In this document: positions 27,987 through 32,062 of the stretch, one piece after another
Layout of the letters: each line of letters begins with the position of its first letter
Position numbering within the stretch: the first letter of the stretch is position 1
Assembly: GCA_019359675.1 (NCBI GenBank)
Contig: JAHHGX010000019.1
Span: 1-64,000, forward strand
DNA: 64,000 nucleotides
Reading direction: 5' to 3'
From: Calothrix sp. FI2-JRJ7
Lineage (GTDB): Bacteria > Cyanobacteriota > Cyanobacteriia > Cyanobacteriales > Nostocaceae
Position numbers and translations under genes: made by a program
Notes under the pieces: model-generated
The model's input: the letters and a program-made list of their open reading frames with translations, nothing else
What the model was told of the DNA's origin: nothing
Databases searched by the model: none

Positions 27987-28032
27987 AATTTCTCCAATTT
28001 ATAATCAATGTTGTACTAATAGCTTGATTGTA

Positions 28033-28238
28033 GGTTGGGTGGAGGCTCTGCGGAACCCAAGATAAACTAAGAGTAGTGTTGGGTTTTGCTTCGCATAACT
28101 ACCCTACCCTTCAGGATATCTTACCCTTCGGGAAAACCTTCGGTTTACGGATAACGGGAAAACTACCCTGCGGGAAAACTACCCTGCGGGAAAACTTCGT
28201 TTACGTTTACGTTTACGTTAACGTTCCTCCACCCAACC
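28033..28238. repeat. Repeat element with GGTTGGGTGGAGG inverted ends and internal tandem repeats
   Basis: GGTTGGGTGGAGG at 28033 and CCTCCACCCAACC at 28226 bound the region. Inside are GGGAAAACTACCCTGC repeated about two and a half times near 28148-28192 and a GTTTAC hexamer repeated about four times near 28199-28225. There is no coding capacity. The same GTAGGTTGGGTGGAGG core forms the interior of the MITE at 30527. Confidence 0.75.
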
Positions 28239-29350: not shown

Positions 29351-30250
29351 TTATAACTTTCGCCTGTACTCATTTGGAGATACGCCAATATAGCGATAAA
29401 AGAAAGTTGCGAACTGGTTTTGGTTTGCAAAGCCTAAATACCGACTAATTTCTTTAATCGATAAAGATTGTTGTATTAATAATTGTTTAGCTTGGTTAAC
29501 TCGGCATTGAATTATGTATTGATAGGGTGTTATACCTGTAGATTGTTTAAACAATCGAGCAAAGTAATAACGACTCATTCCAAGCTCAGTTGCAATTGCT
29601 TCCAACGAAATATTTCCAGCGTAATCATTTTTGATATAATCTATTGCCTGCTGCAACTTATATTTGGGCAACCCTCCTGCATTATTTTGATTTTGATGCT
29701 GTTTTGTAGAGTACCGATGAATCAAATGCACTACTAATGTACTCGCTAATGATTCTGCATAAAGTTGACCGCCATGAGAATCTAACTCAAGTTCTGTTTT
29801 CAAGGCTAAACCAATTCCTTGAATTAGCGGGTCACGGATTTTAAACTGTGGAATAATTTCAACTTCGCTATGCCCCACGATTTCATTTGCAGTTCGAGCA
29901 AAAAATTTAGGTTCGGGGTATAAGTGAATAAACTCTGCTTCTCCTTCTAAACAAACAGAGCGAAATATATTTGCTGGAGTAATACTAATATCTCCATCAA
30001 CAAAGCAGTTACGTTGAGGTAAACCGTCAAGCACACGCTTTTTAACTATCGGGCACCCAACACAAATGCTAATAACATGATTTGAAGACAGATGTTCGGG
30101 TGTTTCACAAGCAGGCTGACGATGATAACCAAATTGTATACAACTCCAGTTTGCCTGAGCGCTAGAAAGAATAGGTTGACGAGGAAGAATTTGTAGAATT
30201 GAACTTGATAAAATCAAGTTAATAATTGGAAGTTCTTTTTCTAGTTTCAT
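29351..30250 (-). CDS. AraC-family transcriptional regulator
   Basis: A 299-residue protein with two helix-turn-helix motifs at the C-terminus (ISLEAIATELGMSRYYFARL and LSIKEISRYLGFANQNQFAT, then FYRYIGVSPNEYRRK). The N-terminal half is a variable sensing domain resembling that of the AraC at 58219-59160 (shared SSILQILPRQPILSS and NCFVDGDISITPAN patterns). Both paralogues sit next to oxidoreductases, so they probably sense related small molecules. The start overlaps the end of the MFS pseudogene by about 30 bases. Confidence 0.88.
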   Translation of the reverse strand: MKLEKELPIINLILSSSILQILPRQPILSSAQANWSCIQFGYHRQPACETPEHLSSNHVISICVGCPIVKKRVLDGLPQRNCFVDGDISITPANIFRSVCLEGEAEFIHLYPEPKFFARTANEIVGHSEVEIIPQFKIRDPLIQGIGLALKTELELDSHGGQLYAESLASTLVVHLIHRYSTKQHQNQNNAGGLPKYKLQQAIDYIKNDYAGNISLEAIATELGMSRYYFARLFKQSTGITPYQYIIQCRVNQAKQLLIQQSLSIKEISRYLGFANQNQFATFFYRYIGVSPNEYRRKL

Positions 30251-31035
30251 TTTTAATATTTTTAGTTTTTTTCTTAATGATTAATAACGCTATCAACGCA
30301 CTCAACAGCGCTAAACCAACAGCAATAAACATAACTAGACGAAAGCTATCTACAAATGCAAGGGCAACAGCTTGTTTTACTCTTGTACTAACGGCACCTA
30401 CACTTTCAGGAACAGATGCAGCAGCTAGCTTGATACGTTGGTTATCTAGAAGTTTTTGCACATTGAGTGGAATTCCTAATGCTGTCATTACTAAGGGTAG
30501 CTTGGCGCCGTAACGACTTACCAACCAATACTGCTCGGTTAAGCTCAAAAATCGAACAATTCGTAGGTTGGGTGGAGGAACCCAACATTTTCAGGACGCG
30601 AGTTGGGTTCCGCAAAGCCTCCACCCAACCTACAAATATCCTTAACCGAGCAGTATTGACTTACCAACCCTCCAGACCACCGCGACAAGAAAAACATAAT
30701 TAAAATAAAAGGCAAGAAAACAGTACCCGCAGCAGTAGCAGAGTAACCTTGCACTTGGATTAAATTAAACGGGACAAAGAAGAATACCCCGCCTAAAGCA
30801 GCATAAAGCAGTAATGTGAGTAAATTGGCGCCGCTAAAAGTACGCGATTTAAATAACGATAACGGCATCATTGGCGCACTTGTATTCGCCTCAACAAAAA
30901 TAAATGCACTTAAAATCAGGGCGCCGACAACTAGGTAAATTAGTACTTGGGGATGAAGCAATCCTAAATGCGATGATTGAATAAGAGCAAAAACGATTGC
31001 CCCTAAGCCAAAAGTTGCTTCTCGCGCTTGCGTTG
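30219..31035 (-). pseudogene. MFS drug-efflux transporter (EmrB/QacA type), N-terminally truncated and split by a MITE
   Basis: Two frames are parts of one 14-helix-type MFS protein. The upstream piece has ALIQSSHLGLLHPQVLIYLV and LGGVFFFVPFNLIQVQGYSA. The downstream piece has VSRYGAKLPLVMTALGIPLN and a final helix ending LIALLIIKKK. Removing the 131-bp element and one 12-bp target copy joins them as GGLVSRYGAKL in a single frame. Upstream of about 31035 the N-terminal half is also missing. It lies upstream of AraC on the same strand and was probably its regulated exporter. Confidence 0.88.
30527..30657. mobile_element. 131-bp MITE with 17-bp perfect TIRs and 12-bp target duplication
   Basis: AATACTGCTCGGTTAAG at 30527 and CTTAACCGAGCAGTATT at 30641 are perfect inverted ends. 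GACTTACCAACC occurs immediately on both sides (30515-30526 and 30658-30669) as a direct repeat. The interior is itself a hairpin with GTAGGTTGGGTGGAGG arms and GAACCCAAC/GTTGGGTTC. There is no ORF. The pre-insertion MFS reading frame can be reconstructed exactly, which establishes mobility. Confidence 0.9.
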
Positions 31036-31089
31036 TAAAGTAAACTCCTGGCTAAAAGCACAAGCTGATTAAAATGGACTGAAAATATC

Positions 31090-31128
31090 CAGTCGTCTGA
31101 AGACGACTTGAGCTATTAGCCTTAAGCT
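31090..31128. repeat. CAGTCGTCT-GA-AGACGACTTG intergenic repeat
   Basis: AGTCGTCTGAAGACGACT is a perfect palindrome and is followed by CTTAAGCTTAAG. It is an intergenic cyanobacterial-type repeat between the MFS remnant and the SDR gene. The MFS truncation point lies 50 bases away. Confidence 0.6.
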
Positions 31129-31204
31129 TAAGGCGGGTTGGCTGCGTGCGATGCAGAACCGGAGCATAGAGATGTGTAAATCCGTTTCCGTACTTATAAT
31201 CCAG

Positions 31205-32062
31205 TTAGCCTCCAATCTGTATTACTTCAACGCCGTCAAATGTCGTTTCTTCACCGACTTTGCGCCACATACTAAATTCCTTATCCATTGTTGCGCGTTT
31301 CTTTTCCCACATACCGAAAGCGTCTGCGCCAAGCATCAACCTCAGAGGTGGTTCATCCGCTTCGACCACTTTAATCATCGCAAGCGCAGCTTTACGTGGA
31401 TTGCCTGCTTGCTTGCCGTCATTACCGTAAAGATACTGTTGAATTGGCTCAATCACAGGTTTGTAATCCTCGATCGTACTTTCGGGGCGCATATTTGACC
31501 CACCTGCAAACTCAGTGCGAAACGCTCCCGGCTCAACAATCGTAACTTTAATACCAAGCGGCTTTACTTCATCACGCAACGCTTCGCTGAACCCTTCAAC
31601 CGCAAACTTTGTCGCACAATAAAGCCCAAAGCCACCGACACTTGCCAACCCACCAATCGAAGTTAAATTGAGAATGTGTCCACTTTTTTGCTGTCTCATC
31701 ACTGGCAATATTTCGCGGGTCATCTCAAGCACGCCAAAAAAATTGACTTCAAACTGCTTGCGGATTTGCTCGGAAGAAAATTCTTCCAATGCTCCCAAAC
31801 TTCCTTGTCCAGCAATGTTTGCTAGTATATCCACACGCCCAAACTTTTCGATTGCGCTGTTTAGGGCTTGTTGGCGCTCGCTCTCGTTAGTTACATCAAG
31901 TTTAACGGCAAGTGCATTGTCTTTGTATTGCGCGACTAATTCTTCAATGTCGGCAATTTTTCGCGCCCCCAAAACAGCTTTGTTGCCCTGCATCAGAACT
32001 GCTTCGGCTAATGCTCGTCCAAATCCGCTTGATGTACCAGTGATAAAATACACTTTGCTCAT
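31205..32062 (-). CDS. Short-chain dehydrogenase/reductase
   Basis: A 285-residue SDR of the longer classical type: TGTSSGFGRALAEAV, NIAGQGSLG, the catalytic LTSIGG and YCATKFAVEG, and the C-terminal extension TFDGVEVIQIGG. It follows the molybdenum hydroxylase large subunit by 87 bases on the same strand and may be transcribed with it. An alcohol dehydrogenase feeding an aldehyde oxidase would make sense, but this is inference. A tail like its own is left at 18230-18304. Confidence 0.87.
   Translation of the reverse strand: MSKVYFITGTSSGFGRALAEAVLMQGNKAVLGARKIADIEELVAQYKDNALAVKLDVTNESERQQALNSAIEKFGRVDILANIAGQGSLGALEEFSSEQIRKQFEVNFFGVLEMTREILPVMRQQKSGHILNLTSIGGLASVGGFGLYCATKFAVEGFSEALRDEVKPLGIKVTIVEPGAFRTEFAGGSNMRPESTIEDYKPVIEPIQQYLYGNDGKQAGNPRKAALAMIKVVEADEPPLRLMLGADAFGMWEKKRATMDKEFSMWRKVGEETTFDGVEVIQIGG

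Follow-up and report, generated by a model that had tools for sequence, protein, structure and literature searches.

A miniature element with very probable IS4-subgroup ends and a GTAG REP dimer core in an MFS exporter remnant of Calothrix sp. FI2-JRJ7

The element and the gene remnant that holds it

The window, that is, the whole stretch of 64,000 nucleotides of Calothrix sp. FI2-JRJ7 DNA that was analysed, contains the remnant of a DHA2-like MFS exporter gene (30219-31018, reverse strand), within which lies a non-coding element of 133 bp (30526-30658). This element is short and is bounded by perfect terminal inverted repeats (TIRs) of 18 bp, of which the left one, CAATACTGCTCGGTTAAG, occupies 30526-30543 on the forward strand and the right one 30641-30658 on the reverse strand. 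The TIRs are bordered in turn by two copies of a 10-bp target duplication, ACTTACCAAC, at 30516-30525 and 30659-30668. From left to right, the interior is made up of a long spacer arm of 19 bp (30544-30562), a first REP with GTAG and a GTTGGGT...ACCCAAC stem, the tail of which faces outward (30563-30586, forward strand), a second, inverted REP, GTAGGTTGGGTGGAGGCTTTGCGGAACCCAAC (30602-30633, reverse strand), and a short spacer arm of 7 bp (30634-30640), both arms being delimited from the sequence. No strand is assigned to the whole element, the target duplications or the spacer arms.

An earlier, sequence-only reading had described this locus as a MITE with perfect TIRs, which holds, although the sizes that it gave, 131 bp for the element and 17 bp for the TIRs, are too small, the terminal C/G of the repeats having been left out. 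The region of 29500-31500 gave no match in Rfam, and nothing relevant was found when the end sequence was looked for in the literature.

The insert and its duplication add 143 bp to the MFS gene, which shifts the frame: when the insert is skipped, one open MFS frame is obtained, and when it is kept, the frame runs into stops, so that the restoration of the frame upon removal, as previously claimed, was confirmed. Intact homologous frames of 533-556 residues are present in three other genomes (G003, G010 and G011), and the frame of G003 matches MFS_1 at 1e-59. The copy in the window, however, begins only at approximately codon 230 (position 31018), with some 230 N-terminal codons missing, and has lost 282 bp in frame at 30487-30489, with an overlap of 3 bp, and another 3 bp besides. 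Given these two other large lesions, which may be older or younger than the insertion, the insertion cannot be credited with the breaking of a working exporter, as had been proposed. The truncated 5' end of the gene is abutted by non-homologous DNA (31045-31180), which contains a CAGTCGTCTGAAGACGACT hairpin and has a repeat-like appearance.

Target duplication, ends and partner transposase

The comparison of the orthologous empty sites showed that the insertion is absent from two relatives, G003 (Calothrix sp. NIES-4105) and G010, each of which carries a single GACTTACCAACC with its natural G and C. This same sequence had been taken for a target duplication of 12 bp, but only its inner 10 bp are duplicated: the G and the C on the outside belong to the target and coincide by chance with the terminal G/C of the element, which makes the repeat look like one of 12 bp. 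The length was also established on a sample of 120 shells, i.e., small elements lying between such ends, from the window genome, its relatives and named genome contigs, in which exact repeats of 9, 10, 11 and 12 bp were found in 1, 67, 1 and 0 cases, respectively. The duplication matches at no fewer than nine of ten positions in 84 of these shells; across the ten positions, between 80 and 84 of the 84 are identical, a number that falls to 13 just outside, on either side. In the pooled flank alignment, identity drops to background beyond the ten positions, which rules out a 12-bp duplication. The pooled target is weakly palindromic, approximately RRAYNNRTYY, a pattern that the window target fits poorly. 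Nor is the length of the duplication unusual, as was once thought, given that 10-13 bp is normal in the IS4 subgroup (PMC2266710). The insertion is thus real and mobile, as its ends, its duplication and the empty sites demonstrate, and the description of the locus as a documentable transposition event was borne out.

The ends also recur elsewhere, as a search of the window genome and its relatives revealed: 28 were found in the window genome within 2 mismatches, against 3 for the reversed control, and such ends are present in 23 of 41 genomes, the window genome included. The IS4 subgroup is characterized by ends of the pattern -AATR--------WTW, a transposase with the YREK signature and duplications of 10-13 bp (De Palmenaer et al. 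2008, PMC2266710, with the end pattern and duplication length given in its Table 1), and the family of the window element shares all three of these features. The end CAATACTGCTCGGTTAAG conforms to the pattern and has 13 of its 18 bases in common with the end of the E. coli IS4, which was checked beside insG, while the 10-bp duplication lies within the range of the subgroup.

The search for an insertion sequence with the same ends was also successful in the relatives, where autonomous elements with the same or nearly the same ends, ranging from 1.5 to 2.2 kb, encode IS4-type YREK transposases. For example, G005 (Calothrix sp. PCC 7103) carries a 2.2-kb element that has these ends, is bordered by a duplication of 10 bp, CTACGGATAT, and encodes a transposase of 469 aa, which matches Nterm_IS4 (PF13006), DDE_Tnp_1 (PF01609) and the NCBIfam IS4 family NF033592, and contains the YREK signature, YHQRWEAENTLDELK. 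Five transposase frames of 475 aa each, with equal length and score, were found in G002, where the ends and a 10-bp duplication, CGGCAGCCCT, are present in both of the copies whose flanks were read (2 of 5). These two copies (L299 and L305) lie at an identical 10-bp target, perhaps within another repeat. In G011, the versions measure 1.5 kb and are bordered by duplications of 10 bp, with ends that deviate slightly (CAATACGGTTCGGTTAAG and CAATACGGTTCAGTTAAG), and named plasmid copies occur in Tolypothrix PCC 7601, a Nostoc lichen cyanobiont and an Aphanizomenonaceae isolate.

While elements of the IS4 subgroup typically have 1400-1650 bp, several of the autonomous copies found here reach 2.15-2.2 kb, due to a conserved divergent ORF of 126 aa (L059:1975-2355, and also in L183, L184, L185 and L058). 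This ORF has 70-74% identity between genera, as in a conserved accessory gene, and it had no significant match in Pfam, NCBIfam or PHROGs.

In the assembly of the window strain itself (91 contigs), no intact copy of the partner transposase was found, only one decayed fragment at a contig end, and for this reason the present mobility of the element in this strain is putative; the transposase was probably lost from the strain, rather than being hidden by an assembly gap. The window element itself, in contrast with the members of the IS4 subgroup, has no gene, and a comparison by eye of its spacer arms with the interior of the insertion sequences revealed no visible match, which suggests that it is no plain deletion derivative of the copies seen.

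The window element very probably belongs to the IS4 subgroup as a miniature, non-autonomous member with a GTAG REP dimer as its core. Its 18-bp ends would have been recognised by an IS4-type DDE transposase, supplied in trans, which would have excised the element and placed it in the MFS gene, or in what was already its remnant, at a site cut with a stagger of 10 bp. Both the trans-mobilisation and the catalysis by this type of enzyme are presumed, the latter from the family of the element.

The REP core

The core (30563-30633) consists of two inverted GTAG hairpins, GTAG-GTTGGGT...ACCCAAC, arranged as a head-to-head dimer, and its strand folds far better than shuffled sequences (z -10.6). With a GTAG tail and a stem-loop, two inverted copies and a high copy number, it has the make-up of a GTAG REP dimer (REPIN). 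Approximately 238 units of the GTAGGTTGGGTGGAGG hairpin were counted in its own genome within 1 mismatch, compared with 0 for the reversed control, and a solitary REP hairpin, which lacks such ends, lies outside the element at 28030-28060 (forward strand), so that the hairpin was correctly described as common in this genome, with another copy at 28033.

REPs of the form GTAGGTTGGGT...ACCCAAC flank RAYT genes that pass the NF047646 cut-off in two relatives, G012 and G028, and, in G014, REPs of the second of the common cores, GTAGAGACG...CGTCTCTAC, border a RAYT-like gene that stays below this cut-off, NF047646 being more telling than PF01797 in the RAYT search. The window-type REP was not found beside any of the RAYT-like genes of its own genome. 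One RAYT-type gene of the window genome (G000:C52:141-593, L334) has a different REP, GTAGGGTGGGCATTGCCCACC, beside it.

The RAYT-associated REP of Coxiella, GTAGGTTGGGCTGAGCTTGCGAAGCCCAAC (Nunvar et al. 2010, PMC2817692), differs very little in form from the window core, which also has in common with the GTAG REPs and RAYTs treated in the pertinent sections of PMC3733652 and PMC2817692 the GTAG tail, the GTTGGG..CCCAAC stem and the head-to-head dimer. The flanking of RAYT genes in the relatives and the likeness to Coxiella place the core in a class of REPs linked to another class of transposase, unrelated to the IS4-type ends. In contrast with the known GTAG REPs, the dimer lies here inside an IS4-type shell and is duplicated together with it. 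In A. variabilis, GTAG-15 dimers enclosed in long palindromes have been described by Di Nocera et al. (2013, PMC3733652), although of a sequence other than that found here, and the sections of that paper which deal with them name no transposase.

Core diversity and the nesting of two systems

Among the 120 shells, no fewer than five unrelated cores lie between one and the same pair of ends, two of these cores being RAYT-type REPs, as grouped into motif classes that were set by a script and have rough borders. The GTTGGGT REP core is found in 20 shells (13 with duplications), the GTAGAGACG REP core in 31 (20 with duplications), the GGGGAAAAGG core in 24 (20 with duplications), a 91-bp type without such hairpins in 17 (9 with duplications), and an AAGGGGG hairpin core in 7 (6 with duplications), with further core types also being present. 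The median self-complementarity is above that of shuffles for all the core types except the 91-bp type. As a tentative reading, the IS4-type end pair may be a carrier that repeatedly took up unrelated hairpin repeats, including two RAYT REP families, in which case the resulting hybrids could potentially move in two ways, and IS4-type shells would spread REPs between genomes.

Shell and REP core have been copied together, given that shells which enclose a REP core and are bordered by exact duplications were found at several loci, in more than one genus. As REPs are tied to HUH-type RAYT transposases and the ends to a DDE transposase, two unrelated systems are nested here, and most likely the REP came by a route of its own into a shell that already existed. 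The arms are consistent with such an insertion: in the GTAGAGACG shells, the arm on the CCTT side is similar, where the REP begins, to that of the 91-bp type, with a score that none of 1000 shuffles reached, whereas the likeness of the other arm is not outstanding (148 of 1000 shuffles). As a few bases of the CCTT-side arm served to choose the orientation, this comparison of sequences is no more than suggestive of REP insertion into an older shell.

It is rather unlikely, on the other hand, that REPs at separate loci recombined and the core of an old shell was exchanged in this way, which would give core and ends different histories. Several cores do occur in one shell type, and G000:C91:79304-79414 (L121), which shares 91% identity with the interior of the element even though its ends are decayed, hints at such an exchange, but in other genera, too, many of the shells with a REP core combine a long arm with a short one (L204, L231, L235 and L252, among others), and the maintenance of this asymmetry across genera suggests the descent of these shells as a unit.

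That the widespread GTAGGTTGGGTGGAGG repeat owes its mobility in general to the IS4-type ends, as the sequence-only reading had suggested, is very improbable: the REP-dimer shells did move with these ends, but only about 7 loci in the window genome, some of them decayed, have the REP between IS4-type ends, a small number beside its total of REP units, the copy at 28030 is without them, and it is RAYT genes that such REPs flank in the relatives. Least credible of all is a reading in which a RAYT moved the entire 133 bp as one REP-type repeat, the inverted ends being incidental, since, even with a genuine RAYT-type REP dimer as the core and many REPs occurring without these ends, the 10-bp duplications border the outer ends and not the REPs, the same ends are found on intact IS4-type elements, shells with wholly different cores share both ends and duplication length, and REP-less shells with exact 10-bp duplications refute it as a full account.

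The miniature IS4-type element with a REP dimer core brings together the ends of a DDE transposase and the hairpins of RAYTs, which are mechanistically unrelated, nested and travelling together. This could shed light on the way in which REP hairpins get to genes and into new genomes, and on the strong differences between the cores of MITEs that share their ends. Nezha, a cyanobacterial MITE that Zhou et al. are said to have reported in 2008, is reportedly small and non-coding, with inverted ends. The MITEs of Anabaena sp. 90 resemble the window element in these same respects, as does Nezha by its description, and they were called type II because no insertion sequence in that genome shares their ends (PMC3542288). 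Some cyanobacterial MITEs of the Nezha and Anabaena sp. 90 kind break genes. In contrast with those of Anabaena sp. 90 (PMC3542288), the partner family of insertion sequences was identified here, by which a transposase group is assigned to a widespread family of cyanobacterial MITEs.
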